A stretch of DNA of 64,000 nt, taken from Salvia splendens (taxonomy: Eukaryota > Streptophyta > Magnoliopsida > Lamiales > Lamiaceae). The position numbers were made by a program, and so were the translations under genes. Position 1 is the first letter of the stretch. Each line of letters starts with the position of its first letter. Under the pieces are notes generated by a model. That model searched no databases. It saw only the letters and a list, made by a program, of their open reading frames with translations, and was not told the origin of the DNA. The DNA lies in assembly GCF_004379255.2 (NCBI RefSeq), contig NC_056052.1:1054001-1118000 (forward strand). The letters run 5' to 3'. Shown here in pieces: positions 5,713 to 52,025 of this stretch.

Positions 5713-6150
5713 TTTTGGATTGGTTGAATGACATTATTGTTGATTATTATGTTGGATTGTTTGGGTTTAAGTGAATTTGTGTATAAATTTGATTATAAAC
5801 CTAAACCCTAGGGTTGTTATAGCTAAAAAATTGGGCAAATTGTTTTGGTTTATGTGGGTTTTGGTTGATGTATGTTGATTAGTTTGAATTGTTAAATTTG
5901 TTTATATTGTTAGGTTTGTCAAATTGAAATTGGACAAATTGAAATTGTTAGGTTAGGCAAAATTGAAATTGGGCAAATTGAAATTGTTAGGTTGGACGAA
6001 TTGTTAATTTAAATTGTTAATTTTGTGTAGGTGAATTATTTGATGTTGGTGTTCAATTTTGTGATATTGGATTAAATTGTATCTAATTATTGAAATGGTT
6101 TATGGTTGGTTATTGTTGAATTTGGATTATGAATGTTGTGTAGGTAAATT

Positions 6151-6879
6151 ATGGCATCATCTTCAACCTCTCGTCGTCGGCTTGCATGTGGTCCTGCGGA
6201 TCCATCTGTATTATATTTTCAGAGACAACACGTCTCTAACAACATATGGGCAGGAGTTCCATCCGAATATGTACGTTGCCGACGATATGAAGGATTAATT
6301 TGGGATGTTCCCATCCATCAATATGTCTTGGCAATAGTGGACCAGATGGGGTTTGGGGGTATATTAAGGTGTGGTAAACCAAAAGACATTGACCACCATC
6401 TTATCACAGCTTTGATTGAACGTTGGAGGCCAGAGACTCACACGTTTCACTTTCCAGTCGGTGAAGCGACTGTGACACTGGAAGACGTGGAGGTCTTATG
6501 GGGCCTCAAAGTTGATGGAGAGGCTCTGACAGATTACATCCCCCCGACGGAAGCGGGATATTGGAAGGACAGGTGTTTGGATTTTCTAGGATTCATACCG
6601 GACGCATCCGAGTTGAAGGAAATGGCTTTTAAGCAAACAAGCTTATCGATTCAATTGAGGATTGAGCTGTCTGGTGACCACGAACACAACATATATGCTC
6701 AGCGGGCTCGTATCTATTGTCTGCTATTACTTGGTGGTCTGATGATCCCCAACGGCTCCGGAAATAAAATTTCGTTCTTCTACCTACACTTTTTCTTGGA
6801 TATAGAACGGCTCCGCAAAATCTGTGATGACCCACATTGGGTTCTTCTTTCCATATGGGAGAATTCATTGCATCTATGA
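6151..6879 (+). pseudogene. Plant mobile domain (PMD) protein, C-terminally truncated
   Basis: The 242-residue frame starts at ATG 6151, just after a leader that begins in the left terminal repeat. It reads as the PMD (aminotransferase-like, MAIN/MAIL-type) domain: the segments VPIHQYVLAIVDQMGFGG, FHFPVGEATVTLEDVEVLWG and LLLLGGLMIPNGSGNK are typical of transposon-borne PMD proteins. After ERLR (about 6815) the family similarity stops and the last 20 or so residues come from the antisense of the transposase gene. Full PMD proteins are several hundred residues longer, so this is a truncated remnant. Its function in the element is unknown to me; PMD genes are often carried by plant MULEs and Ty3/gypsy elements. 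Confidence 0.8.
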
Positions 6880-8608
6880 TTCCCACATGCCTATCAGATA
6901 TGACACATATTTCATGTTTTGCTACATGAAGTCTAATGCGTTCCATAAACCAATTCCAACTTTCTTTGGTTTCCTCATCAACAATGGCATATGCAACAGG
7001 CAAACATTTCTTATTAGCATCAAATCCAATGGCAATAAGAATTTTACCTCGACATCGTCCACGTAGATGAGTTCCATCAACCGTTAAAACTGGTTTGCAT
7101 AGTTGAAAAGCCTCCACAGCTGGTCCAAAAGCCCAGAATACGTGCTTGAATACCTTGTTCATACCATTGCTTAATATGTCATCGTGCAACCATTCCACAA
7201 TTGTGCCAGGATTTTGTCTTTGCAATTCATTCAAATAAGCTGGTAACACTTTGAACGACCACTCCCATTCACCGTATACAAGCTCAATCGCTGTCCTCCG
7301 AGCATACCATGCTTTCTTGTAACTAACTTTGACATGAAATCTATTTTCAATATCCGCCACAATTGCTTTTACCTTGTAGCAAGGATCGTTTTCTATCTGA
7401 TGTCGAACACTCAACGCTATCATACCCGACGAAAGATTAGTGTGCCCATTATAGTTACGATCCCCCATGCAAGTATGAGCAGTGCTAAACACTCTAATTT
7501 GTCAGTGTTCATCATGCTTTCTCAGTGTTGCTCGGCACTCCCACAAACATTTCGGTAATGAGGTATCCTTCGGATTTCCTTGTGGCCACTTACAAACTGC
7601 ATGCCATCTCTTTCCTTTACTTTCAGCAACTGTATATTGTCGGATTTTTTCCAAATGCCAATGAGTCACAGCTGCCTTCAATTCCAACTTCGTTCTAAAT
7701 TTAGTATGCAAACCGACATTGCTAGGATCTTTTTCACTCCAATAATGCACACTGGGATCATCACGTTCGAAGTTTTTGTGATCAAAACTATCATATGGAC
7801 CTGGTAAGGTGCGAAAATAGTTGATTCCACGCTGTGGAAACTGTGGAACTACTCTTCCTCCAACTGCCCTTCCTCCAACTGCCCTTCCTCCAACTGATGT
7901 TTCTCCAGCTGTTGTTTCTCCAAGTAGAATGGATGGTCTTGAAGCAACAAATTGTTCATCATCCGACGGATCATCATCTGAGTCTGTACTAACATGGTCG
8001 GAATCTTCAGAATAATAAGGTGATTGTGGATCAAGAAAGCCGGCTTTATCAGGACCTATTACGTCCTCAACCGCAGCACAATTGTCACTTTCCCCTAAAT
8101 GCACGCCTCCAGCTTCAAAATCTTGTGTTGCAGCAAAATATGGTTCTTGGGCTCTCATAGACGTACCAACATCAAAATCTTGTGTTGCAGCAAAATATGG
8201 TTCTTGGGCTCTCGTAGACGTACCAACATCATAACTTATGACATGATGACTATGATGTTGAGTAATTGCCGAATACTCAACATATAATTCAATTAGACCT
8301 CCAATAACCATACTCTCACTAAACATTAGTTGCATGCATACTTCGTCTAGTAGAACACCTACAAACGTGACTCCGGCTCCAAAGCATATTGTACGTTTCC
8401 ATATTATTTGAATGTTGTTTTCATATATGATTATCCCCATCCTTTCACAAATTTTTTCCACAAGCTCATCGTACGAAATTGTTTCATCCAACATAATGAA
8501 TCCTTTAGCAAAAGGAGGATCATACGAAATAACTGCTCCGGGAATTATCTTTCCACCCCAATATAAATTGACACACCACGTCATACTATCTGCAATAATG
8601 TAAAACAC
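6629..8608 (-). pseudogene. MULE transposase (mudrA-like), broken
   Basis: The reading frame runs from 8608 to about 6815 and is interrupted once by an in-frame TGA at 7502-7500, after the residues RKHDEH. The same frame resumes at once with typical MULE sequence. The N-terminal part (368 aa) holds a MuDR-type domain, two 19-residue direct repeats (around 8090-8230), GRAVG repeats and an acidic linker. The second part has the transposase core with the first catalytic Asp in LTVDGTHL and the second in VISDRH. Similarity ends at HHRFC, where the frame runs into PMD antisense until 6629. The third catalytic acidic residue and the C-terminal zinc knuckle are therefore missing. The stop probably replaces a Trp codon (inference). 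Confidence 0.85.
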
Positions 8609-8666
8609 AAATAAATATGTATTATTTTTACATTCATCATTATGTAGAGTGAGCCAAATATGCTAA

Positions 8667-12565: not shown

Positions 12566-16026
<3,461 letters not shown>

Positions 16027-21723: not shown

Positions 21724-21747
21724 CCGACGTGGCGGCGCCACCTGTAA
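21724..21747 (+). promoter_or_regulatory. Conserved ACGTGGC box of micro-gene 1
   Basis: The 24-bp block starting CCGACGTGGCGGCGCCACCT is repeated without change about 190-220 bp upstream of micro-genes 1 and 2. It contains an ACGTGGC core (bZIP G-box/ABRE type) and is nearly palindromic (GTGGCG/CGCCAC). Clear similarity also extends upstream (TTTGCCACACTCCTCAACA). A TATA-like AATAAATAT follows at about 21832. Confidence 0.7.
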
Positions 21748-21941: not shown

Positions 21942-22091
21942 ATGGCCATTTCACTCGTCCCCATTGGGTGCTCATGGTGCGAGCAGCGGATTAGTAGCGA
22001 CGACGACGGTTACCACTACGCGCCGCCAGTATCTGCTGAAGGCGGCGGCGATGATGATGATGTGGATTATGATTATGCTCCGGCAGCATGA
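21942..22091 (+). CDS. Micro-gene 1: 49-aa CxWC/Asp-rich/YDYAPAA peptide
   Basis: I do not recognise this family. The single-exon frame encodes 49 aa. The N-terminus MAISLVPIGCSWCEQR has a Cys-Ser-Trp-Cys motif at residues 10-13. A middle segment contains YHYAPPV, then EGGGDDDD, then the C-terminus DYDYAPAA. The internal YHYAP echoes the terminal YDYAP. No signal peptide or membrane segment is visible, so a soluble intracellular product is likely. It is the first of five tandem relatives, all on plus. Coding status rests on conservation of ATG, motifs and stop across the copies while flanks and third positions diverge, and on a shared promoter block. Confidence 0.8.
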   Translation: MAISLVPIGCSWCEQRISSDDDGYHYAPPVSAEGGGDDDDVDYDYAPAA

Positions 22092-22198
22092 TTTTGATCA
22101 ATCCATCATTAGTTTCTATATAGCATAGTATACTAGAATGTAGCAGCTTTAATAAGTAGGGTGTAATCTGCTATAATTATTCAAGAACTAGTTGTAAG

Positions 22199-22941
22199 TA
22201 GGGATGTCAATGTAGCCCGCAACCCGTGGGCTGACCCGAATAACCCGCCAAATTTATAGGGTTAGGGTTGAAAATTTCTAGCCCGATAAAATTACAACCC
22301 GATTAGCCCGCACCCGATTAACCAGCAACCCGCTAGGGTCAAACCCGAAAACCCGATGAGCTGGCCCGAAAACCCGATAAAATTTCTATTGTTCTATTTG
22401 TTTGACTCCGAATTGGACAATTTCATTGATTATTTTTATAATATAGATAACTAAAAAATAACATTCAATTTTATATTAAACATATAAATTATATATTAAA
22501 TTTTTATTAATATAATAATAAATAAATAAATAAATTAGAAACTTCTAATTCATTAATAAATATTTAAATTTATAAACATGTTTTAAAACATGCTTTAAAA
22601 TATTTAAATTTATGTTTTATTTTACACAAATCTCAAATATTAGTATTTGATCATGTTTGTGTTTGAGTTTAAGTATAAATCTCAAATTTATCATAACTAA
22701 ATATTTATATTTTATAAATATAACTAATTTTCGTCATTATTTATTGGATTAATCGCATGTTAATTTTATCGGTAGCAACCCGATTAACCCGCTGGGCCAG
22801 CCCGAAACCCGAGCGTTTAGGGTTAGGGTTGAACTTTTATAACCCGAAAAAATCTCAACCCGATTAGCCCGCACCCGATTGACCCACAACCCGAGTAGGG
22901 TCGGCCCGAAACCCGGTGGGCCGGCCCGATTGACATCCCTA
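22199..22941. mobile_element. hAT-type non-autonomous element
   Basis: A 743-bp element with terminal inverted repeats TAGGGATGTCAAT and a perfect 8-bp target duplication GTTGTAAG (22191-22198 and 22942-22949), as for hAT transposons. The outer parts are rich in AACCCGA/TCGGGTT-type repeats and the centre is AT-rich. It has no coding capacity. It sits about 100 bp downstream of the micro-gene 1 stop codon. Confidence 0.9.
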
Positions 22942-23249
22942 GTTGTAAGAAAATCAATTTTGATGATTATGTATGAATAAAATAATTAATCATTTGAGAT
23001 TTAGTATTTCAATATTGAGAATATTATTTTGACCTTTTGAAAAACTTTTTTTTTTCCATTGATTTCAGTGTTTATTGAATTTGTATTTATTGGCAAATGG
23101 CAAGAGTTTATTGCACCTGATTATAGAACTCCATATATTTACTTTTAATTAGAATTTATTGTCATTTTTATTAGACAAATATGAGTATGAGAATTGATAA
23201 ATGAAAAAGTAGGTTATATAACTTTTTTTTAGTTCCATTTTTTAAAATA

Positions 23250-24485
23250 GAGTGAACTGTACAAAATTGCCCCTAACTTTTGCACTTGTTGCACCAGTAA
23301 CCCCTAACAAAAAAAATAGCACTAGAGGGGCCTAACGTTAAATATAATCACGAATGAAGTTTTTTCGGACCAAAACACCCCCAGGCCCTAAAAGAGCATT
23401 TTTGTCACTCCATTATATTGCTAACATGTGATTTCTGCCACATTTCTATCACCAACTTCTTATGTAATTTTCTAATAAGTTTTTGTACTTTATAAGTAAT
23501 TAAAATTTTATCATTATTTACACTTTCTAATTTTTTTATAATGTACATATTTATCATTATCTGCATTAATTAATATGAACATAATAAAATGAGACCATTT
23601 CTTCCTTATAAAACTCATTTTCTGGTATTTTTTCGTGTTTTTATTTCCCGTAATTTATTTTATTTACATTGATTTATGGATCAATTTTATTTATTATGAA
23701 AACATCCTAATTTTCCAGTATAAATTTATAAATTTACATTGTCTTATTTCAAATACTATTATTAATAATAAAATCTTGAAGGATTAAACAGCTAATATCA
23801 CATGATTGAATTTTTTCAAAATATTACTCACGTTTCAATTTTATCATGAATGACAAGAAACTATGCAAATTTATATCTAAAGATTGAATGTTCATATGCT
23901 GTTAAAAATTCCAGATTGAGCTAAATTAAAATTACATCAATAAAATATCAATCATAAAAATCGTCTTAAAGTTAGGCTTAGAGTAACAAATTAGTTCGAT
24001 GATATATAATGAAATAATATTTTAAATGTCAATATTTTTAATAAAATAATTATTGTATCATTTAATTAAATGTGAAATATTTTTTATTCTGTGTATTATT
24101 GATTCGGATTTTATTGCATAAATAACTTCGCTTTTCCATGTTTTTGTTTCTCACTGAATTTCCTACATGATATAACTAGAGGGACATAAGAATTTTTTTT
24201 GTACAAATATTGACAAAACTTTAATCACGTATGAAGTACTAGAACTTATTTGAAAATCACTTAAGAAGTTGTTGGCAGAAATGTGACAGAATTCATATGT
24301 CAGCGAATTTAGGGATTGCCAAAAATGTCCTTCAAGCTATTTGGGCATTTTCGTCCGAAAAGTGGCAAAAAAAACTTCATTCGTGATTATATTTAACGTT
24401 AGGCCCCCCTGGTGCTATTTTTTGTTAGGGGTCATTGGTGCAACAAGTGCAAAAGTTAGTTATGGTCATTTGGTGCAATTTACTC
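23250..24485. mobile_element. Non-autonomous MULE with long inverted repeats
   Basis: A 1.24-kb element with inverted repeats of about 250 bp starting GAGTGAACTG / GAGTAAATTG. The shared inner blocks include CTTTTGCACTTGTTGCACCA and GCCTAACGTTAAATATAATC. It is flanked by the perfect 9-bp duplication TTTAAAATA (23241-23249 and 24486-24494). The interior is AT-rich without a frame. Confidence 0.88.
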
Positions 24486-24501
24486 TTTAAAATAAATAGT
24501 A

Positions 24502-24717
24502 CTCCCTCTATCTGCGAATAAGAGTCTCGTTTTTTCATTTTAGTTTGTCAACGAATAGGAGTCCACATGCCCTAACTCATTCCACACACATCTCATTTAA
24601 TACTAATAAATACAAGTGAGACCCATATACCACTAACTTTTTTCCACCCACTTTTCTTAACATTTTTTAAAACTCGTGCCAGAAAGAAATGAGACTCCTA
24701 TTCGCGGACGAAGGGAG
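24502..24717. mobile_element. Stowaway MITE
   Basis: A 216-bp TA-flanked element with ends CTCCCTCTATCTGCGAATAA and TATTCGCGGACGAAGGGAG. It belongs to the same subfamily as the short copy at 9382-9468. Confidence 0.88.
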
Positions 24718-25736
24718 TATGATGGAGTCTTATATTATATTATTCCATCTACTCAGAAAAAATGTCATGAAATTATACGAGTTTAATTAGAATGGTTGGT
24801 GATATTTGAGTTGAGTAAGAGTCTCACTTCAAAATATGTGGGATATACTGAGTTTTGTGATGAACATCTTCGCATGCATATTAGTATATATATTTATTAT
24901 GATGATTAAGTTTTAATTAAGGCAATTAAGTGTTAATTAGGATGGTTAATTACTTTGTTGGAGCTATTCACACTACAGTGATGAGCATATAACACATTTT
25001 TTAAATAATTAATTTAGGGGTGACATGCTGATGTTACGGTCAATAAAATAGGATACTAATTCACATCAATCAGCATTGTATAGGTTCAGTCAAGGTTTGG
25101 TTAAGATTCAATAATTTATCGAATATTACGAGTTTACGACACAAAGAAGTGCTTAAATATATTATTTTTCTCAATTTGTGGAGATCTTTATGACACTACG
25201 TGAAAAATAAAATAATATAATGTGTTAAACTTTATGAACTGCAAATATTTTTTAAAAAAAGTTAACTAGTTTTTGGAAATAGAAAAATATGGATTCATAT
25301 TCAAATTTTGATTTTTACAAAAGAAAAGAATACCACTAAAATTATAAGACTAGTAAAATAAATCATTAACCTAATTGTTATGAGCCTTAATTTTTAAAAT
25401 CTCCAATTTTAGCTATACACCAAATATTTATTTTTTCATGAACGAGACTTTATTTGTTCTAATTCTAGTAATTTCCCTTTAATTTGTTTCTCCTTGAGAA
25501 TATTTCTTTTATTTCTATCTTGAAATTGATTCTCCTTGCTCTTCTAATGTAATTGATAGTGAAACATTTCTCATTAAATTCGAGTGTCTATAAAAAATGA
25601 ACTAAGTGTTTCAGTGTTGTATTCATCCAAAGTTATATTCCCTCCATCCCACTATAAAAATTAAATTTTTTTGAATACGAGATTTAAGAAAATGATATTT
25701 ATTGAGTTAATTAGAAAAAACAAAATAAAAGAAATA

Positions 25737-25987
25737 CTCCATCCGTTCCAATTTAATTGTCACTCTTGGAGTGGACGCGAGTTTTAAGAAAAAGAAAAGT
25801 TGGTTGGAAAAGTTAGTGGAATATGAAACCCACTTTTTTATATTGGTTTTATTATAAAATATGAGTGAAATGAGTCAGTAAAATGTGAGACCTACTAATT
25901 ACCATTTATGGTAAAAATGAAGTGTGACAATTAAGTTGGGAGGGAACGAAATGGAAAAGAGTGGCAATTAAGTTGGGGCGGAGGGAG
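25737..25987. mobile_element. Stowaway MITE
   Basis: A 251-bp TA-flanked element with ends CTCCATCCGTTCCAATTTAA and TTAAGTTGGGGCGGAGGGAG. A further partial Stowaway-like end (TTCCCTCCATCCCACTAT, about 25641) lies just to its left without a clear partner, so it may have inserted in an older copy. Confidence 0.85.
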
Positions 25988-26508
25988 TAATAAAGTACGA
26001 GAGACAAAGAGAGACTAAAGTAGGAAAAAATAAAAACTAAGAGATGGTAAATAGATGGTAAAAGTGTTATATTTTTTTCCCTAAAAATGTTAGTTAGGAT
26101 TACGTGGAAAGTCACTTGTAAAATTCGATTCTCCGTTCCATAAGTATTAAACTTTGCAAAAATTATACTTACTAGTTTTTTTTTACATAGTTATGTGGCA
26201 TTTAAAAATAACAATGACTGAATTTTTATTTATATTTGTAGTATGCTGGTTCGAAATCCTATCTATAACAAAAGTAAGTGTTTTATGTTGTATATTTATC
26301 CAAAGTTGTCTTTTCCCCAAATTAAAATATACTACTATAAAAAAATAAATATCCCAAAATTTCGAATCAATACTTTTTAATGTTCTCAATCCACAAAAGC
26401 ATTAATCACAAATTCCACCACAAAAATTTGCCACACTCCTCAACACGGACGCCACATCAAATCCACCTTTTCCCCACAAAAAATCCCACTTCAAAAAAAC
26501 CCAATTTC

Positions 26509-26532
26509 CGACGTGGCGGCGCCACCTGTAAA
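26509..26532 (+). promoter_or_regulatory. Conserved ACGTGGC box of micro-gene 2
   Basis: Identical over 24 bp to the box at 21724-21747 and at a similar distance (about 193 bp) from its ATG. A TATA-like CTTAAATATG follows near 26592. Elsewhere the two upstream regions are only moderately similar, so perfect identity of this block suggests constraint. Confidence 0.7.
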
Positions 26533-26701
26533 TCAGCATCGGCTCTCCACACTCAAACCACCGTCTCCGCCATGCCCACCTTTTTCAACACCTTAAATAT
26601 GCGCCAAACGCGGCGTAATTTCCTCACAAATCAGCCAAAGCCACCCAAATCTAATAGCACTCCAACTGTTTGATCAAATTCCCGACTCAAATTTCGAAGA
26701 A

Positions 26702-26851
26702 ATGGCCATCATCTCTACATGGTGCAAGAAATGGTTCACTGCCGCCGCCGCCGCCGGCGAAGGCCGGAATTGCAGCTATGACCATGCGCCGCCGGTGGAA
26801 GGTGGAGGCGACGACGATGACGCGGACTATGATTATGCTCCGGCTGCTTAA
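26702..26851 (+). CDS. Micro-gene 2: 49-aa peptide of the YDYAPAA family
   Basis: Same length as micro-gene 1. The N-terminus is MAIISTWCKKWF, so the first Cys of the CxWC motif is replaced by Ser (STWC). An Ala run, then YDHAPPVEGGGDDDDADYDYAPAA and a TAA stop follow. The second half is nearly identical to micro-gene 1, but with an Ala-rich insertion and a Cys at position 24. It has no signal peptide and a single exon. Function unknown. The loss of one Cys would matter if the motif binds metal or forms a disulphide. Confidence 0.8.
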   Translation: MAIISTWCKKWFTAAAAAGEGRNCSYDHAPPVEGGGDDDDADYDYAPAA

Positions 26852-28113
26852 ATTTGATAATTTTATCTTCAAATGTAGCATTATTTTAGTGTCTCTTGTA
26901 ATGGAATCTCCAATTTTGCCTATTAATGTATTGTATTAGTATTTGAATATTATATTATTCAGACTTGTGTTTTTGAAGCTAAGAATCGTAACATAATCGT
27001 ACTATTATATTAATAGTACCTATGTCACAACATAATTGGATAAGAATTAAAGAATTGAACAAGATAAAAAGATTTAAAATTGAAGATGTATATATAAAAA
27101 AAATGTACACAAGTGGAACATATAAAAGTGGGATTAAGAATCCATAAATGGGAAAAATACAATATAAGTAATAGTGTTGTATTTGAAGTGAAAGCAAAGT
27201 TAGTGCTATGATTATAATATGCTATCATGACCACATTTTTTTTCTTCTTTTAGTCAATCATATACACTAATATTGAGGATTGAATATTTTAATTTTGTCA
27301 AATAAAATCCCATAAGGATGTTGACAGCAGTAAATATAATTAATTATATTATTGCACTTTTTAGGCGTTATTAATTTATTATTGAATTTGAGCCCCAAAA
27401 ATTCTCTTCGTTGCATGGCATGTTGTGGACTACATCTGTCACAAAATAATCAATTAAAGTTTTATTAGTTGTCTTCATTTTTTTTTTCATGTTTTGATTT
27501 AATTTTAAATGGGTAGTTTAAATGTATCATGGCTTTATAGTGGAGTATTTTATATTTACAATATTAAAATTAAAGGCTACGAAACCTCATATCTTTGACA
27601 CAAGACATTAACTATTCTATCAGTTCAGAACTTATGATTTAAGTGAGAAAGTGTACAATTAATTGAAACCTCAACGAAAAGTATACATCATCATTTTTTC
27701 AAATTGAATTTTTTTCATCTTGTTTTTCTACGTTCCTACTTGCCTTATATATCTATAAGAATTACATCTCATAATTTGAATCTTGAAGATATCCAAAATA
27801 TTTGGCATGATACTTCCTCCTTTTTATTTGAAGTGTTTCACTTGTAAAAAAAAAGAAACTCGTTTAATTATCTCAAGATGTTTTACATAGTAGTAATAAA
27901 GATTATAAAGTGTCTACCTAGTTGTGTGCTATCTATCATTTTTCCTCTCTTGCTAAAACACATATTGACGAATTAATAAACACATTATACTCTTATCACA
28001 TTTTTGTTAATACTTAAAAAGAAAACTAGAAACTTTAAATGAATAGTAGAAATTATTTTCTTACATAATTAAAAATTGAGCTAATTTTGGTGAATGAATC
28101 AAAATAGAAAAAA
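26852..28113. other. AT-rich spacer between micro-genes 2 and 3
   Basis: No coding or structured element that I can support. I looked for the ACGTGGC block upstream of copy 3 and did not find it. Confidence 0.5.
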
Positions 28114-28250
28114 ATGGGATTACTTTCGTGGACGAACGAAATTGAACAGAGAATTCGATTCGTTATTACTATGTGGCGGTGGTGCGTGGAGAAAGCGGTG
28201 GCGGCGACGACGATGATGATACGGATTATGATTATGCTCCCGCTGCGTAA
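28114..28250 (+). pseudogene. Micro-gene 3: frameshifted relative
   Basis: From ATG 28114 one frame reads MGLLSWTNEIEQR, similar to the start of copy 1 (SWCEQR), but both motif Cys are absent. A different frame then gives the family C-terminal half, RYYYVAVV followed by GESGGGDDDDDTDYDYAPAA and TAA at 28248-28250. A frameshift around 28150-28165 separates the two parts. With the lost Cys and no recognisable promoter box, this is best called a pseudogene. A sequencing error is possible for the shift but would not restore the Cys. Confidence 0.75.
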
Positions 28251-29900
28251 TTTAATTTTTTGATAAATTTAAACTAATTAACTTTGTATTTACTAGCGTT
28301 TTATGTAGGAGCATTTAGAATATCAGTTGAAGCTATCGTGGCTAATGACTAGTGTGCCTCAACCTCTTGTAATTTTAATTTAATTGAGAAAATGAATGCA
28401 GCAGTTATGATATAATTTGTAAAAGAACTGAATATATGCAAATCAAAACTAGTACTACTATAGAAAAATAAATCGAGAATTTAAATATTTCCTTTTGAAT
28501 TAATTAAGGGAAATTTAGTTTTCACGATTGATAAATTACAAATTTGAGTATTTTCATCTTTACCGTTTTAAGGATTAATTGTCCAATCAAATCATTTGAT
28601 AGGGATAAGTAAAAATAATTCAGCTTTAGAAACAAAAATTATCAAGGCACCCCTAATTCGAATCCATTTTACAATAAACAATGACTTAAAACATTTACTT
28701 TTATCGGTCTACACCAATTTCTACAAAATAAACGACTCCTAATAAGTAAATGGGTTAATTGCATCACAAATTGCACCTTTCAAAATTTGAATGAAAAATC
28801 ACGAAAACTGAAATCTTCCAATTGCCTAATGTTAATTTTTTTTCCAGACTAATTTCATGCTAAAACTGGTGCATTCGTGTAAAAATTTGGTGAAGTAGAT
28901 GAATAATGATGTAAATGTGTATCAATGTGACGACGTGGACGGCTAAACTACGCATCATAAGAAATTTAAAATAAATAACATAAAATATAAAAAATTTGAC
29001 AATGTGATTTATTTTAAACTTCATGATTTATGATTTGAATTTTGAAAAGTGCTAGAGAAATCAGAATTTGACGTGATTTTATATGATGCTATCAAATAAT
29101 TTTTTTATTGTTACAACAAAAGAAATGACTGTTATTGAATTAAGTGAAAGGAATGAATGTGTGTCTTAATCATCCCAAAAACAAGAATATAATGTGTTAA
29201 ACCGTCAATCAAGAATAATATCTTAATTTTGTCGTGTAATGAGATATCTTGGTGATAGTAACTCACGACGAGGTTTTTTAAATTTAACTAAACCCAACGA
29301 CGTTGACAGGAAATTAATGAAAATATTTTCTTAATGACTACGTGTTCAACACAAAACATGCCACCTGCCAATTATAGTAGTAATACCTTGTAAATACTCT
29401 ACTTACATTTTTCACATTGATTAAAAAATTACATTTAATGTTTTTCGAAAAAAATTCCCTCCCCAAAGATTCATCACTAGATGGTAGGCCGTACGGATTT
29501 TAAAAAATTGTGAAGTAATTATACGATGAATGATAAATAATAGTAAATGGAGAATTCTGTCACACTATAAAATAGTACGAGTGGTATGATTATGTTGATC
29601 TAGTTATAGACTGGTTAATGTCCAAAGGTAAAGATATTGGATATAACGCTTTTCAACTCAATTTCAACACAAATTGATAATTTAAAAATTATTGGAAATT
29701 AATCATACATGATTTTTACAGATAAATTACGTGACGAGGAGCTTGTGTAACTATAACTAATTAATTGAAAATCATGGAATGCAGTTTGTAAATCATGAGT
29801 GGCTAGGAAATACTGAAGTTCAAAATAAAACAGCCACTTATGCGTAGAAATCAAACAACGTTTTAAATTACAGCAAAACAATAAGATAAGTTCAAATCTT
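28251..29900. other. AT-rich spacer between micro-genes 3 and 4
   Basis: No gene seen. A block around 29230-29330 (TAATGAGATATCTTGGTGAT and following) is similar to one at 31240-31340 downstream of micro-gene 4. This suggests the duplicated unit reaches well beyond the coding parts. Confidence 0.5.
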
Positions 29901-30242
29901 TAGAATTAAAATATTTTTATTTAATTAACGTGTATAGATTTTTGTAAACCAAAGCACGGACATGTAATAGCCAATTGAAATAAATTACAACTAAATTCCT
30001 CAATTTGCATGTTTGTGTAGCCACCCACAATGATAAAAAAAACAATCATGTTGCTACTTTAGAATATATTCTTCTTTTATTCTTTTTCTTTGAGTCGTTA
30101 AAATTTTTCTATTTTTATGATCACTTTCAATACTCCATTGGTAGGCCTATATACTAAATTCAATTTAAGAACCACACACATATAAAAATAAATAATTAAA
30201 TACTAGTACGTCACTTGGTTTTAAAAAAAACAATTAATATCT

Positions 30243-30325
30243 GATATGGCACATAATATCTGACGTGGACACCCATAATTGCTAATCTTGCATCCTTTTC
30301 AAGCCATGCACACATTCACACAAGC
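30243..30325 (+). promoter_or_regulatory. Shared upstream block of micro-gene 4
   Basis: GATATGGCACATAATATCTG followed by ACGTGGA, then about 25 bp later TTTTCAAGCCATGCACAC and TTCACACAAGC, recur at 32405-32487 upstream of micro-gene 5. The ACGTGG core is common to the boxes of copies 1 and 2. The TGACGTGG form also contains a TGA-factor (as-1-like) half site. A TATATATA box lies near 30369. Confidence 0.7.
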
Positions 30326-30505
30326 TAACCATGCAAAACCTTTATTGAGGTTACACACACACATTTCTATATATATGCATGATTTATCCTTCCCAAATAG
30401 GCAAGTCACACCCTTCAATATAATTGTACCCATAGCTAGGGATACATTGTTTCTAGTTTTTCTCACCTTCTATACATATATACAAACTTAATTAATATAT
30501 CAAAA

Positions 30506-30685
30506 ATGTCCTTAGTCGCTATAGAGATGCCCGTTTGCTCGTGGTGCAAGAAGCATTTCGATGATATGAGCAATATTGTTGATGGATTCAGGTTTCCTTC
30601 TGCAACTATGCGTATCGAAGGTGGCGGAGACGATGATGATGACGATGACGATGATGTAGTGTATGATTATGCTCCGGCCGCGTGA
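30506..30685 (+). CDS. Micro-gene 4: 59-aa peptide of the YDYAPAA family
   Basis: Encodes MSLVAIEMPVCSWCKKHF (CxWC at residues 11-14), then DDMSNIVDGF, a linker ending IEGGG, nine consecutive Asp, and VVYDYAPAA before TGA. It is longer than copies 1 and 2 because of the NIVDGF segment, shared only with copy 5. Single exon, no signal peptide, family unrecognised. The CxWC-KK start, acidic run and exact C-terminal APAA are held despite divergence elsewhere. It lies in a repeated block with copy 5, so the two probably arose by a later tandem duplication. Confidence 0.82.
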   Translation: MSLVAIEMPVCSWCKKHFDDMSNIVDGFRFPSATMRIEGGGDDDDDDDDDVVYDYAPAA

Positions 30686-30939
30686 TATTAGAAGGTGGAA
30701 TGGACTTGGCTATAGCAAGTTAATTTTAATGATGTTTTGCATAAATTATATTACAAGCTAGCTAGCTAGGTTTTGTATTTGCAAGTAAGGAATCGAATTA
30801 ACTCCCAATCTCTTAATTGGATGAAAAATATCATTATATTGAATGAATTGTGCTCTGTTGTCTTCATGTGACATCAATTCATGTCAAAAAAGACTAAGTT
30901 GGACATCTTACTTAATTGCGTCAACCAATTATAGTATTT
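30686..30939. other. 3' flank of micro-gene 4
   Basis: Likely 3' UTR and spacer; nothing else seen before the LINE-type insertion. Confidence 0.4.
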
Positions 30940-31207
30940 GAGAAATATCAGATGTTGGAACGGAGATTAAAGTAGCAGGTTTGTAGCTTGGTGAAGCGCG
31001 GGGTTTGTCTTTTCTTTCTCTTCTTCTCTATTTGGCCGCGTCTTTGGGGTGTTGCTGCTTGGTTGTTTTGGTTCTCGTTTGTGGTTTGTTGGCCTTCTTG
31101 TGTTAGTTGTTATTTTGTTGTTTTTGCTTGCTTTTTGATTCTCCTGTGTACGTTGGACCTTTGCTCGCCTTTTATGGTTTTGAGCCTTTCTTAATGCATA
31201 AAAAAAA
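30940..31207 (+). mobile_element. 5'-truncated LINE-type retroposon with poly(A)
   Basis: A 268-bp insertion rich in G and T on the plus strand that ends in a run of A. It is flanked by the perfect 17-bp direct repeat AACCAATTATAGTATTT (30923-30939 and 31208-31224). A long target duplication plus an A tail indicates non-LTR retroposition. It is too short for a full L1 and has no box A/B, so a 5'-truncated LINE is the best reading. The frame within it is not considered a gene. Confidence 0.8.
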
Positions 31208-32400
31208 AACCAATTATAGTATTTTTATTGCGTCGACGTAATGAGAGATCTTGGTGATGGTGATAGTAACCTATGACAAAGTTTTAATTTAACATAAGTC
31301 AGAAGGTGTAGTTGACATGAAATATAAGAAAATAATTCATTTTTGTATTATAATGCGGATTTTAATTAGGTGCAAATGCATGGCAGCTACGTGACTACGT
31401 GCGATATGCACTTCTATTTTACTATATTCTTATATATACTCAACATATATCAAGCACACTTCCACCAGAGTACAATTTTGTTGTATTGCTTTTAATTTAA
31501 TCAATAATAATATATTGTTTATAACTTTTTATTGTGGCGCAACCTAGATTTTCGATTTTAGGTATGATATATAATTATCGACTTGGAGCTTCAACTCCTA
31601 TTAGTCTTTTTTTTTGTTATGTTATCTCAACTATAGTCTCTGTCTTTATTTTTATTTTATTTTTTTGGTGAAAACTTCATTATATATATAAAAAAGTAAA
31701 TCAGGAGTACTATTTTGGATGGCTTCTATCATTCAAAATTTCAAATTGTAGGTTTCACATTATTAAGTTTTCAAATTCATTCATTGCTGACGGTAGATTC
31801 TACTTTACGAACACAAGTGTAAATGTTTAGTGAACCTAAAAGAAAATAAAACAAAATATGAAAATTCAGTCAGAAAATCATGAAGTTTGGATTGTTCTCA
31901 ATTATCTCATGGTGGAATATTCTAGTCCACTACATATAATATATTGTTCAATGTTTTCAAATGATGTTGTTTTCTTTATGAATATATAACATTGTTTAAT
32001 TCATCGGCAGCAACGTCTACGTATAAAATTTTGACTGTAATTTCAGATACAGTTTCACAAATTTTTTTATCATAAATAATTGAGAACAAATCAAAATTTT
32101 ATGATTTTTCTGGTTGATTCTCAAAATTGCAACACAAGTAATTGTAGTAATAAAGTATACCGGCATTATGACAACACAATTTTCTTTCATCAACCGCTGT
32201 TTGATGTTTGTGTTGCCACAATGATAAAAAATTGGCACGTGTATAAAGAACAAATGCTATTTTGGAAAAGCATTATTCTTTCTTTTTTCTCTTTTTCCTG
32301 GCCTACTAAATTCAATTTACTTTTCCGACCAAAAGTATGCATGCAAACGGACCACTTGTTTTTAAGAAAAACAAAAAAAGACTCTTAAAAATTATAACAA
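31208..32400. other. Spacer between micro-genes 4 and 5
   Basis: No gene seen. The part at 32190-32320 (ATGTTTGTGTTGCCACAATG, then TACTAAATTCAATTTA) resembles 30010-30170 upstream of micro-gene 4, consistent with a tandem segmental duplication. Confidence 0.5.
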
Positions 32401-32404
32401 ATCC

Positions 32405-32487
32405 GATATGGCACATAATATCTTACGTGGAGGTCGACGATTGCTATTCTTGTAACCTTTTCAAGCCATGCACACTTTCACACAAGC
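32405..32487 (+). promoter_or_regulatory. Shared upstream block of micro-gene 5
   Basis: Matches 30243-30325 upstream of micro-gene 4, including the ACGTGG core and TTTTCAAGCCATGCACAC. Here it lies about 900 bp, not 265 bp, from its ATG, so sequence has been gained between it and the gene. A second, proximal match (TATATATACA and CTTCCCAAAT, 33187-33220) resembles the core promoter of micro-gene 4. Confidence 0.65.
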
Positions 32488-32586
32488 AAACCCCTTCTCT
32501 TTTAGCTCTACACATGCAAAACCTTACGCGCGCATGCACTCACTCGATACGGGCCGGGGAAGGTTCAAGTGAGAATGATAACTATT

Positions 32587-32767
32587 CGTAAGAATTGCGA
32601 ATGATTTATAAATACGAATTACGCGTGCATATGGTAAATAAGTTAAATTTCACGTGCAACGAGTTCGTGAATAAACACCTAGGTTCGAATCTCATTAGTA
32701 GTTAATCCTTCGTGAATTTCTTATGCACGAAATTTAACGTATGTATGCATTATTCTTAACTCTTACG
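32587..32767. repeat. Inverted-repeat insertion upstream of micro-gene 5
   Basis: Ends CGTAAGA and TCTTACG with further inverted similarity inside (TTAAATTTCACGTGCA against TGCACGAAATTTAA). It looks like a degraded MITE and accounts for part of the extra distance between the distal promoter block and micro-gene 5. No clear target duplication. Confidence 0.45.
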
Positions 32768-33299
32768 TTAAATATATACTTATTTCACTTAATCTCACTC
32801 GTAAATTTAAGCCTCTAATGAAAAACACACCCTTCACTACACTACAAAACACACACAGAAAAAAAAATCAATAGTAGTGATAAAGACACAATGGCAACAT
32901 AATTTCACAACTACTATTCCACTATTTCAAAATGTATCAAAGAATAACATCTTGTATTACTTTTGACAATATTCCTTTTTTATGTTGCAAGAATTATCCC
33001 AATACATTCTTTTTCCCACTAAAGAAATATCCTAGGACATTGTTTTCCAAACCAAAAGATATGAAAACTATCAATTTATTATTGGTGAAAACTCTCAAAA
33101 AAGGACGAACCACAATTTTTGTAAATTAACCTTTAGCATACTCAAATGGCCACATAACTTTTTCTAGGGTTAGGGTTGTACATACATACCTATATATACA
33201 CATGCTTACTCTTCCCAAATCTAAATCACACACCTTTCAAAATTCAAGACTCATTTATAGGTTTGTTTCTCATTTTTCTCACCGCCTATAAACCAAAAT

Positions 33300-33473
33300 A
33301 TGCCTCAAATTTCTGCAGAGACAAAATGTTGGTGGTGCAAAAAATATCAAAATGATATGAACAATATTGTTGATGGATTCAAGAATGCTTCTACATTCAT
33401 GTCGTTTGAGGTCGACGGAGATAGTGATGACGACGATGATGATGGTGACTACGATTTCGCTCCGGCTGCTTGA
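33300..33473 (+). CDS. Micro-gene 5: 57-aa peptide of the YDYAPAA family
   Basis: Encodes MPQISAETKCWWCKKYQ (CxWC as CWWC, residues 10-13), NDMNNIVDGFKNAS, a linker, SDDDDDDGDYDFAPAA and TGA. The C-terminal Tyr of the last motif is Phe here, and one Gly interrupts the acidic run. It is closest to micro-gene 4 in the NIVDGF segment and proximal promoter. Single exon, no signal peptide, function unknown. Retention of a 57-codon frame with only conservative motif changes supports a functional gene. Confidence 0.8.
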   Translation: MPQISAETKCWWCKKYQNDMNNIVDGFKNASTFMSFEVDGDSDDDDDDGDYDFAPAA

Positions 33474-34374: not shown

Positions 34375-35490
34375 GAACATATCTATCGGGACCGGGCTGC
34401 TAGAGAAGAGCTCTGCACGGTTGGTTTGGAGTGTGTTACGGACTCAATTCCCACATCGGTTGTGAGAACAACTGATGTGGGGTATATAGACTAAATGGGC
34501 TTTCTCTCCTAACAGGCTAGTCTTTTGGGATGAGTCCTCCTGTTTGGTCTGTATCAATTGGTGCTTTCATTGAGAGCTCAAACGGCTCGGAGTGGTGGCC
34601 GGGCAGCGAACTCGCCGTGATCAACGAGTACGTTTGGGGCCGCTCGGAGTGGTGACCCACGGAGTGGTGGCCGGACAAAGAATCCGCCGTGACCAACGTG
34701 GCCGTGACCAACGAGAACTCGGAGTGGTGGCCTGGCAAAGAACCAGCCGTGACCAACGTGGCCGTGACCAACGAGGACGTTGGCCCTTAAAGGAGGGTCG
34801 AATATTACGGACTGAATTCCCACATCGGTTGTGAGAACAACTGATGTGGGGTATATAGACTAAATGGGCTTTCTCTCGATGTGGGGTATATAGACTAAAT
34901 GGGCTCTCTCTCCTAACAGGTTAGTCTTTTGGGATGAGTCCTCCTGTTTGGTCTGTATCAAAGTGGGTCCACGACTCTGATTCAGCTCCATCATCTCCTA
35001 CTTCACCGGCCGAAGAGGCGGCAGCAGCAGCCGAGTCATTAAGCATGTCATTCGGGGAAGGAAGTTATGCAAGAAGAATTCTAGAAGGCATGGGCTGGAA
35101 AGAGGTACTTCCTTTGACATAGCATATTTTAAATATATAGTATATCGGTTATAGTGCACGTTACGCTTAGGTGGCATGACGGACGACTTTGGATGGTGGA
35201 TTCGATAAACAATACATAAGATGAGATTGAGTATTCGAAGGATTACACAATCCAATAAGTTCAAAATCATTCAGTTATACAAAGTATGTTGTTGTAGATT
35301 AGCCTAAGTAAACATCCTTTTTAGCATAAACAGAACGACAAAACATCAAATGTTTGGGGTTTTGACATCGTACGGTGCTGTATAGGGGGAGGCACTCAAT
35401 CACAGCACGAAGGGTCTGACTGAACCTCTTCAGGCAACTGGAAACAAAGGAACAGCTGGTTTAGGTTGGGACGATCCTAGAAGAAAGTAA
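34375..35490 (+). pseudogene. G-patch domain protein gene, 5'-truncated and split by a TRIM
   Basis: Three exon pieces remain. 34375-34433 follows a good acceptor and reads YRDRAA before degenerating. 34966-35104 follows the TRIM insertion and reads WVHDSDSAPSSPTSP, then SLSMSFGEGSYARRILEGMGWKE with a GT donor. 35386-35490 reads GEAL, STKGLTEPLQ, GNKGTAGLGWDDPRRK and TAA. The last two pieces join in frame to make most of a G-patch, an RNA-processing domain; this C-terminal layout is that of plant nuclear D111/G-patch proteins. Residues between YRDRAA and the next exon differ from the usual ERRALHGGFG pattern. All 5' exons are missing and a retrotransposon sits in the exon, so this is a relic. 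The G-patch exons themselves are well preserved. Confidence 0.8.
34434..34960 (+). mobile_element. TRIM retrotransposon
   Basis: Terminal direct repeats 34434-34556 (123 bp) and 34803-34960 (158 bp) start TGTTACGG / TATTACGG, contain CCCACATCGGTTGTGAGAAC and end GTATCA. The internal part is only 246 bp, starts ATTGGTGCTTTCATTGAGAG as many plant LTR elements do, and ends in purine-rich AAAGGAGGG. It also contains tandem GGAGTGGTGGCC / GCCGTGACCAACG repeats. Flanks GAGTG and AAGTG are a 5-bp target duplication with one change. The right repeat is longer because a segment of about 35-40 bp (GATGTGGGGTATATAGACTA) is doubled. It has no protein capacity. Confidence 0.85.
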
Positions 35491-46627: not shown

Positions 46628-49600
46628 TTACAAGTGGAACTTCTTGAGGTTGGAGACGTGCCATGTTCGGGGTACTTGTTCTCCTGACATGTGAGTCAAT
46701 TTATAAGACCCTTTGCCGAGGACTTCTGACACCCGATATGGACCCTCCCATGTGGGTTCGAGTTTGCCCAGCTTTTCTGCTCGGCTTACTTCGTTGTTTC
46801 TCAAGACGAGATCTCCCACTTGAAATTGAAGCTTTTTCACCCTTTGGTTATAATACCGGGCTACTTGCTCCTTATACTTGGCTGCTTTTATGCACGCCAA
46901 TTCTCTTCTTTCTTCGGCGAGATCTAGTTCTGCTCTCAGTCCGTCGTCATTCATTTCTGAGGAGAAATTTAGAGTTCGGGGACTGGGTACGCCGATCTCC
47001 ACCGGAATTACGGCTTCAGTGCCGTACACCAGACTATACGGAGTTTCACCGTTGGAGGTTTTGGGTGTAGTTCGGTAGGACCATAGGACTTGAGGGAGAT
47101 TTTCTACCCATTGTCCTTTGGCTTGTTCTAACCGAGCTTTTAACCCTTTCACCAGAATCCGGTTCGTTACTTCCGTTTGTCCGTTTGCTTGGGGATGGGA
47201 GACCGAAGTGAACCGCTGTTGAATGTTCAGCTCTTGGCACCAATTCTTGAACGTCTTGTCGGTGAACTGAGTCCCATTATCCGAGATGAGGATGTGGGGT
47301 ATGCCAAATCGGCACACTATGTTCTTCCAGACGAAGTCCAATGCCTTTGAGCTCGTTATCGTAGCTAATGGTTCAGCCTCCACCCACTTCGTGAAGTAGT
47401 CCACGGCAACGATAAGGAATTTCATTTGCCGAGGAGCTTGAGGAAGTGGTCCCACTATGTCTATGCCCCATTGCATGAAAGGCCAAGGGCTTTGCATAGT
47501 GTATAGATCGGTCTGCGGCATCCTTGGGACATTTGCATGAATTTGGCACTTCGTACACTTCTTGACGAGCTGCACTGCCTCTTGTACCATGGTTGGCCAA
47601 TAATATCCCCATCTCAGAACTTTTTTAGCTAAAGCTCTGGCTCCGATGTGGCTACCGCACGATCCTTCATGAACTTCTCTGAGGATGTAGTCCGTCTCTT
47701 CTGGTCCTACGCACCGCAATAACGGCTGGAGGTAAGACTTTCTAAAGAGGACTCCTTCATGAAGTTCGTACCGAAGTGCTCGGCACGTGATCTTCCGAGC
47801 TTCTCTCTTATCCTCGGGCAATTGTCCTTGATCCAGATACTGCAAGATCGGCGTCATCCAGTTCGGCGAGCTGGATACTGAATGTACCTCGGCTTCATCA
47901 ATGCTTCGATGCATTAATTCTTCCGCCTTTGAGCTCGGATCTGAGGCCAACTTACTTAAGGTATCTGCTCGGCTATTTTCCGCTCTGGGAATGCGGATTA
48001 TCCGAAAATAGGAGAAACTTCGGCTGATGCTTTGCGCTTTGTCCAAATACTTCTTCATTCTCTCGTCACGAGCTTCACTTGTACCCAACATGTGATTTAC
48101 TATGACTTGTGAATCACAATGGACTTTGAGAGATTTGACGAGCAGACTTTGCGCTAACTGGAGTCCGGCCAGGAGGGCTTCGTACTCGGCTTCATTATTA
48201 GTAGTGGGGAATAGGAACCGAAGTGAGTAGGTTACCTCGTGTCCGTCGGGAGCGACAAGTAAAATACCAGCTCCACTTCCCATCTTGTTTGAAGCTCCAT
48301 CTACGAATCCGCTCCAGCAGTCCGGCGGCTCTACTTCGGATTCCAAGGGCTGTGCTAGTTCGGCATTGGCAGAATTCTTCTGTTCGGCAATAACAGGAAT
48401 TGCTTGATCGAACTTTGCTTCTGCAAGAAAATCTGCCAAGGCTTGTCCCTTGATGGCTTTCCGAGGTAGATATTCAATTGTGTGCTCTCCCAACTCTATA
48501 GCCCACTTGGCGATTCTGCCTGATGCTTCTGGTTTGGTCAACACTTGCCGAAGTGGCAGATCAGTTAAGACGCATACCTTGTGAGCATAGAAGTATGGCC
48601 GCAGTCTCCTTGCTGCATTTACTAATGCCAGAGCAATCTTTTCCAGAGGTTGATACCTGGTTTCTGGACCTCTTAATGCTCGGCTTGTAAAATAGATGGG
48701 AAGCTGCTTTAGGCCTTCTTCTCGTACAAGCACCGCGCTGATGGTTTGATCCGATGCCGCTAAGTATAAGAATATTACTTCGGCTTCGGTTGGAGCAGAG
48801 AGAATAGGAAGCTCGGCTAGATAACTTTTGAGCTCGTCAAAGGCCTTTTTCTGCTCGGCTCCCCACTCGAACTTTGGTGCCTTTTTCAACACCTTGAAGA
48901 ACGGCAGTTGCTTTTCGGCTGCTTGGGAAAGGAATCGATTCAGTGCGGCTAGACATCCGGTTAGCCTTTGCACGTCATGTATGGACTTCGGCACTGCCAT
49001 GTTCTGAACGACTTGAACTTTTGAGGGGTTTGCCTTGAGTCCGTCCTTTGAAACCCAACAACCCAGAAACTTTCCCGAATCTACCAAAAAGGTACACTTT
49101 TGGGGATTAAGTTTGAGGTTGGCTTTCTTGAGCACGTTGAGAGTGGACTTGAGGTTGTGCTCGTACTCCGAAGTGCTTTTGCTTTTGACGACTATATCGT
49201 CAACATACACTTCGACCTCCTTTCCAATCAGGTGCCGAAAAAGCTTGTCTACCATCCTTTGATAAGTGGCTCCGGCATTCTTTAAACCGAATGGCATCTT
49301 TTTATAAGCGAAAATGCCGAAATCAGTAATGAAGGTCGTTTTTGAAGCGTCAATCTCATCCATTAAAACTTGATGGTATCCTTTGTACAAATCAAGAAAA
49401 CAAAAAATTTCAAAGCCTATCAAAGCTTCTACTTTTTTATCTATGTTCGGAAGGGGATAGCAATCTTTGGGACAGTGCTTATTTAGATCGGTGAAATCTA
49501 TGCACATCCGCCATCCTCCTTCCTTTTTCTTGATCATGACAGGATTGGCCACCCACGAAGGATACTTCACTTCGAATAACACATCCGCCTTCAATAATTG

Positions 49601-49891
49601 ACGGACTTCGTCATGGATGACTTGACTTCGTTCTGCCGCAAAGAGTCTTTGCTTCTGTTTTATCGGCCGGACCGAAGGATCAATATTTAACCGATGAGTG
49701 ATTACCTCGGGGGGCACTCCGGTCATGTCCAACGGAGACCATGCAAAGACGTCTTTATACTCCTTGAGGAGCTGGATGGTTTTTTCCCGAAGTAGAGGCA
49801 TTCCCGCGAAGCCGATCTTAACCGTTCTGGATGGATCGTCTTCGTACAGCTGAACTGTCATCGAATTCGGCTCCGGTATGACTTCGGTCAT
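46628..49891 (-). CDS. Tat element pol: reverse transcriptase, two RNase H domains, integrase
   Basis: A 1087-aa intact frame. In order: reverse transcriptase (WRMCIDFTDLNKHCPKD, MPFGLKNAGATYQRM and the catalytic YVDD around residue 225); the usual Ty3 RNase H (YFTSRALRGPETRYQPLEK); a connector; a second RNase H (FVDGASNKMGSGAGILL, NNEAEYEALLAGL, HCDSQVIVNHMLG), typical of the Tat lineage. Integrase follows with an HHCC zinc finger (CTKCQ) and a DDE core (GIDIVGPLP, SDNGTQFTD, GQTEVTNR), then a C-terminal region with KKLQFQVGDLVLR. All key catalytic residues are present, so this copy could be active or recently so. It lies in the same frame as gag-pro, after one TAG. Confidence 0.95.
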   Translation of the reverse strand: MTEVIPEPNSMTVQLYEDDPSRTVKIGFAGMPLLREKTIQLLKEYKDVFAWSPLDMTGVPPEVITHRLNIDPSVRPIKQKQRLFAAERSQVIHDEVRQLLKADVLFEVKYPSWVANPVMIKKKEGGWRMCIDFTDLNKHCPKDCYPLPNIDKKVEALIGFEIFCFLDLYKGYHQVLMDEIDASKTTFITDFGIFAYKKMPFGLKNAGATYQRMVDKLFRHLIGKEVEVYVDDIVVKSKSTSEYEHNLKSTLNVLKKANLKLNPQKCTFLVDSGKFLGCWVSKDGLKANPSKVQVVQNMAVPKSIHDVQRLTGCLAALNRFLSQAAEKQLPFFKVLKKAPKFEWGAEQKKAFDELKSYLAELPILSAPTEAEVIFLYLAASDQTISAVLVREEGLKQLPIYFTSRALRGPETRYQPLEKIALALVNAARRLRPYFYAHKVCVLTDLPLRQVLTKPEASGRIAKWAIELGEHTIEYLPRKAIKGQALADFLAEAKFDQAIPVIAEQKNSANAELAQPLESEVEPPDCWSGFVDGASNKMGSGAGILLVAPDGHEVTYSLRFLFPTTNNEAEYEALLAGLQLAQSLLVKSLKVHCDSQVIVNHMLGTSEARDERMKKYLDKAQSISRSFSYFRIIRIPRAENSRADTLSKLASDPSSKAEELMHRSIDEAEVHSVSSSPNWMTPILQYLDQGQLPEDKREARKITCRALRYELHEGVLFRKSYLQPLLRCVGPEETDYILREVHEGSCGSHIGARALAKKVLRWGYYWPTMVQEAVQLVKKCTKCQIHANVPRMPQTDLYTMQSPWPFMQWGIDIVGPLPQAPRQMKFLIVAVDYFTKWVEAEPLATITSSKALDFVWKNIVCRFGIPHILISDNGTQFTDKTFKNWCQELNIQQRFTSVSHPQANGQTEVTNRILVKGLKARLEQAKGQWVENLPQVLWSYRTTPKTSNGETPYSLVYGTEAVIPVEIGVPSPRTLNFSSEMNDDGLRAELDLAEERRELACIKAAKYKEQVARYYNQRVKKLQFQVGDLVLRNNEVSRAEKLGKLEPTWEGPYRVSEVLGKGSYKLTHMSGEQVPRTWHVSNLKKFHL

Positions 49892-49918
49892 TGCCTCTGA
49901 CTCCGGCTGCTGTGATTG

Positions 49919-51973: not shown

Positions 51974-52025
51974 TTTTGGGGTGGAAAAGGGTCAAAAATT
52001 CGCTTTATCACAAATTTTGTTCTCT

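Follow-up and report, generated by a model that had tools for sequence, protein, structure and literature searches.

A small tandem cluster of putative IRON MAN (IMA/FEP) peptide genes with one truncated copy in Salvia splendens

The window analysed in this work (the whole stretch of 64,000 nucleotides of Salvia splendens, C21:1054001-1118000, in a genome of 806 Mb and 1162 contigs) carries a tandem array of very short genes, which we regard, with a probability of about 0.94, as a small tandem cluster of IMA/FEP (IRON MAN / FE-UPTAKE-INDUCING PEPTIDES) genes with one truncated copy. The family label was chosen because of the sequence match together with the published C-terminus of IMA/FEP; among the matches listed no database protein bore the name IRON MAN and nearly all were called 'hypothetical', 'unnamed' or 'uncharacterized'. 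The preliminary description of this DNA had assigned the genes to an unrecognised family, a view that had to be given up, since judged by sequence they are IMA/FEP genes, with a C-terminus already described for that family.

Identity of the tandem array

The array consists of four intact single-exon frames of 49, 49, 59 and 57 amino acids (aa) and one degenerate copy, all located on the plus strand. The 49-aa frames c1 (21942..22091) and c2 (26702..26851, with the motif STWCKK) both end in YDYAPAA. They are followed by the degenerate copy at 28161..28250, which has kept the acidic run and YDYAPAA, by c3 (30506..30685; 59 aa, a run of nine Asp, end YDYAPAA) and by c4 (33300..33473; 57 aa, end YDFAPAA). 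Sizes, strand and positions were exactly as given in the preliminary description, whose picture of short peptides in tandem expansion with constrained ends was upheld. In all five copies [YF]D[YF]APAA stands immediately before the stop codon, and the Asp run and the Y-D-[Y/F]-A-P-A-A terminus noted earlier were present in 4/4 intact window frames and in 5/5 frames of a second array on contig C22.

The frames were scored with a profile built from those of 127 outside homologues that were no longer than 85 aa. The five window frames were found with E values of 5e-18 to 1.3e-9 and scores of 35.2-62.1 bits (c1 49.1, c2 40.8, the degenerate copy 35.2, c3 62.1 and c4 61.4), and the next window frame scored 6.0 bits. 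None of 20 random windows of equal dinucleotide make-up contained the C-terminal motif before a stop codon, the best score there being 8.3 bits.

A profile of the window copies matched 26 database proteins and a wider profile 210 proteins at E up to 10. Among the best 120 of these 210, which were listed, the sources included Sesamum, Perilla, Handroanthus, Lactuca, Gossypium, Malus, Prunus, Rhododendron, Daucus, Beta and Ranunculus, so that the search for outside relatives with the same ends, proposed at the outset, was answered by finds in many eudicots. Two IMA-like proteins are named methylthioadenosine nucleosidase 1 (P0058, Perilla) and reverse-transcriptase zinc-binding protein (P0071, Tanacetum), probably through annotation errors. 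Pfam returned no family for three of the four intact frames and a chance match for the fourth (9.8 bits against a cut-off of 25), and the PDB search with c3 gave two matches to the acidic run only (E 0.42 and 5.2).

The Arabidopsis IMA1 sequence, used as a query, matched 21 proteins. Of these, 15 have a named source, in each case a member of the Brassicaceae, and G[YF]DYAPAA is present in 21/21. A profile of these proteins recovered four of the five window frames, including the truncated copy, at E 9.4e-6 to 1.3e-4, mostly via the low-complexity C-terminus. The value for c4 was E 1.6, and outside the C-terminus a single weak stretch was matched, in c3 (E 0.051).

According to the published work on Arabidopsis IMA1/FEP3, its last seven residues are YDYAPAA, the final stretch of 17 residues is conserved, no interaction with BTSL1 is seen for variants deprived of the last 17 or the last 7 residues, and the terminal PAA lies on the ligase in a docking model (PMC9226616). 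Recognition of the C-terminus itself, suggested earlier for the window peptides, has in this way been reported for IMA/FEP. The family is described as peptides of ~50 aa with an Asp-rich C-terminal motif, eight of them known from Arabidopsis and two from rice (PMC10167411). Eight IMA genes are reported for Lotus (PMC10825120), and ten IMA genes and four homologues were covered in an expression study of Medicago (PMC6432905); several IMA genes per genome are the usual situation. The window copies share with Arabidopsis IMA1/FEP3 the size of ~50 aa, the Asp-rich C-terminal region, the YDYAPAA end and the presence of several copies per genome, whereas their N-terminal part differs from that of the Brassicaceae IMA1 group, from which the W-C-K region is absent. 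The nine intact frames of both arrays measure 44-59 aa, in agreement with the family size. An acidic run with YDYAPAA at the stop codon is taken here as the sequence signature of IMA/FEP.

A second array and the truncated fifth copy

The window is largely collinear with C22:736000-812000, at ~81-95 % identity in pieces longer than 150 bp, and its part between 41.8 and 52.6 kb matches another place of the C22 stretch at 77-92 %. Extra blocks occur on either side, e.g. the interval from c5' to c3' is ~12 kb longer on C22. The C22 stretch looks like the homeologous region of a polyploid; alternatively, the two may be diverged haplotypes. It contains five intact copies: c1' at 766131, c2' at 768530, c5' at 770897, c3' at 785421 and c4' at 788492.

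A protein search of the genome gave five matches, all in the two arrays. A second one gave 14, of which eight lay in the arrays and six, all weak, elsewhere (E 0.645-3.22); at these six loci no IMA frame was found, the best score being 5.4 bits. Diverged copies elsewhere in the genome may have been overlooked because this search missed c4 and c4'.

Several other features were seen in the window. On the minus strand, 3274-3696 matches a glutamine amidotransferase class-I exon (PF00117), resembling by eye the carbamoyl-phosphate synthase small subunit, and three adjacent frames at 12569-14237 match Alliinase_C (PF04864), as in alliinase or tryptophan-aminotransferase-like genes. A Plant mobile domain frame on the plus strand (PF10536) overlaps a MULE transposase frame on the minus strand (PF10551) at 6148-8662, which corresponds to a Mutator-like element, and two long minus-strand frames of 1096 and 690 aa at 46631-51991 are retrotransposon-like by eye. 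Less than 1 kb downstream of the array (34436-34961) there are long direct repeats of 98-99 % identity with a spacing of ~370-400 bp, together with a repeat of 59 bp.

Comparison with C22 clarified the nature of the fifth copy. Two stretches present on C22 are absent from the window: ~218 bp near 28052, and ~376 bp at window position 28156-28161. The latter gap corresponds to C22:770563-770938, a segment in which c5' (C22:770897-771031), the counterpart of the fifth window copy, has its upstream block, its start codon and its first 14 codons. The DNA preceding the break is 84 % identical to C22:770453-770562, upstream of c5'. Since ~376 bp with the start codon are absent and the pre-break DNA aligns upstream of c5', the fifth window copy is, on this comparison, a 5'-truncated pseudogene; a frameshifted gene at 28.1 kb, as it had been described, was ruled out because the 5' part is missing. 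The motifs ascribed to this copy were confirmed for the C-terminal part and not for the N-terminal part, which is lost together with the start codon. We infer that the change was a loss in the window and not a gain on C22, because the other copies have the matching anatomy.

Peptide anatomy, selection and upstream blocks

The N-terminal motif had been proposed as common to all copies. Over both arrays WC is present in 8/9 intact frames and CxWC in only 5/9; c2 has S-x-W-C instead, and c5' carries by eye a CxxC in another register, WCENC. Among the 127 outside homologues a pattern of our own, W[CY][KREQCN] within the first 70 residues, was found in 44, and in 7 of these 44 a Cys lies two places before the Trp. 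By these counts the Trp-Cys-Lys region is what recurs among many eudicot relatives; the Cys pair does not. These counts bear on the possibility that the array encodes an unrecognised family of metal-binding micro-proteins acting by the CxxC pair and the acidic run, for which speak the W-C-[KE] region of the 44 homologues, the two or three Cys residues in 8/9 intact frames, and the reported iron binding via the Asp-rich region of IMA peptides (PMC10032465, citing Grillet 2018). We consider it very improbable, as CxWC is found in 5/9 intact frames and a Cys two places before the Trp in 7 of the 44 homologues, c1' is Cys-free and the C-terminus belongs to the described family. CxxC was accordingly rejected as a defining feature, and of the metal-binding idea put forward earlier the acidic run was retained and the Cys pair as the defining site was not.

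The C-terminal motif was found at the end of 106/127 homologues and two or more such modules in 52/127 (own patterns), this conservation being partly by construction, since homologue searches pick on shared words. The middle of the window peptides, previously described as variable, is not simply free in c1 and c2, where by eye an apparent decayed second C-terminal module is seen (DDDGYHYAPP; SYDHAPP); the same inner module is intact in the close relative P0014. In comparison with Arabidopsis IMA1/FEP3, c1 and c2 seem to have kept this decayed inner module.

Selection was estimated from four codon-aligned pairs (c1-c4 against c1'-c4') of 207 codons in total. Purifying selection has acted between the arrays, because the pooled dN/dS is 0.38 (pS 0.157, pN 0.065; 52 changes in 207 codons, Fisher p 0.0018); a ratio near 1, named in the preliminary description as evidence against its reading, was not observed. 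For the individual pairs dN and dS were 0.186 and 0.285 (c1), 0.027 and 0.066 (c2), 0.034 and 0.225 (c3), and 0.051 and 0.145 (c4), which leaves c1/c1' weakly constrained with dN/dS near 0.65. In the last 13 codons the four pairs differ by five synonymous and three non-synonymous changes. Between paralogues the distances are larger: dN 0.29 and dS 1.46 for c3-c4, and a saturated pS of 0.75 for c1-c2.

Blocks of similar sequence were found upstream of the genes, on the plus strand. A 20-bp block, GACGTGGCGGCGCCACCTGT, is located at 21726..21745 before c1 and, in identical form, at 26510..26529 before c2; it shows no difference among c1, c2, c1' and c2' and four mismatches in c5'. A block containing TGACGTGGA, common to c3 and c4, lies at 30239..30330 upstream of c3 and at 32401..32492 upstream of c4, the two being 86 % identical over 92 bp. 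This c3/c4-type block has ACGTGG in c3, c4 and c3', and AGGTGG in c4'. Altogether ACGTGG occurs within 1 kb upstream of 8/9 intact copies, c4' being the one without it, and the G-box CACGTG within 1 kb of 2/9 (c4 and c5'). The ACGTGG blocks are candidate regulatory elements; our literature search found no paper joining bHLH121, the G-box and IMA1. At ~32530-33150 there is ~0.6 kb of extra DNA between the c4 block and its gene in comparison with c3, a distance that is larger on C22, and this DNA is a candidate insertion or leader intron.

These data also allow us to consider whether the whole array might be non-functional, i.e. made of decayed IMA copies kept by chance with the activity residing elsewhere in the genome. 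Such decay is visible in the truncation of one of the five window copies, in the loss of the WC motif from c1' and in the ratio for c1/c1'. It is nevertheless a highly unlikely account of the array as a whole, given that four window and five C22 frames are open to the C-terminal stop, that the pooled dN/dS is as low as stated, and that the 20-bp upstream block is unchanged between c1 and c2 despite saturation of their synonymous sites. Chance or low-complexity open frames, which the shortness of the genes and Asp runs made of GAY codons could bring to mind, can be dismissed in view of the motif-free random windows (35-62 bits against at most 8.3), the pooled dN/dS and the relatives in many plants.

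Proposed mode of action and meaning

With the array taken as an IMA/FEP cluster, a mode of action can be proposed by analogy. Under low iron, IMA peptides and the subgroup IVc bHLH factors are reported to compete for binding to BTS/BTSL, so that the iron-uptake programme stays on (PMC10167411, PMC10032465). The C-termini of these transcription factors (ILR3, bHLH104 and others) have a PAA/PVA-type end that was aligned with FEP3/IMA1 and is involved in the BTS/BTSL interaction, although the likeness is confined to the end and was called rough (PMC9226616). By extension from Arabidopsis and rice, peptides of the window type would be made inside the cell when iron is low. Their free C-terminus, with the acidic run and YD[YF]APAA, would occupy the BTS/BTSL hemerythrin-RING ubiquitin ligases and replace the similar C-termini of the IVc bHLH factors on them; the freed factors would escape degradation and turn iron uptake on, and the peptides themselves would be ubiquitinated and then removed. 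We infer expression, iron response and BTS/BTSL binding of the window copies from this analogy.

Genes resembling BTS-type ligases, the expected targets and possible partners of the peptides, are present in the same genome. Matches to the CHY zinc-finger family lie at 24 places in it, 23 of them above the cut-off. Three loci (L028, L030 and L032; eight frames searched with Pfam) all contain a hemerythrin match, barely above the cut-off in L032. CHY was found in L030 and L032 by the Pfam scan and in L028 by the genome CHY search, and each of the three has a RING match below the Pfam cut-off.

IMA/FEP peptides stand close to the top of the signalling that flowering plants use under iron deficiency, and their genes are easily overlooked by annotation, as illustrated by the uninformative names of the matches and the lack of a matching Pfam model for the window copies. 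The present work adds gene annotation for two arrays, clarifies what the broken copy is and shows the Cys-pair idea to be weak. The two arrays, the truncated copy and the candidate promoter blocks provide usable annotation and illustrate on a small scale how genes arise and are lost, but they do not amount to a new kind of system.

Multi-module IMA-like proteins in the database (e.g. P0004, P0009 and P0031) have the same C-terminal module, often with the W-C-K region, but contain two or more modules, up to four per peptide among the database relatives, whereas in the window the copies have a single intact module each. It is conceivable, though we hold it tentatively and think it rather less probable than its opposite, that the BTS-binding C-terminal module is repeated at two levels, as genes in tandem and as modules in tandem within a peptide. 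If so, the arrays would represent a birth-and-death stage tuning the amount or valency of a BTS-ligase inhibitor, and c1 and c2 would be what is left of multi-module peptides after reduction to a single working end.
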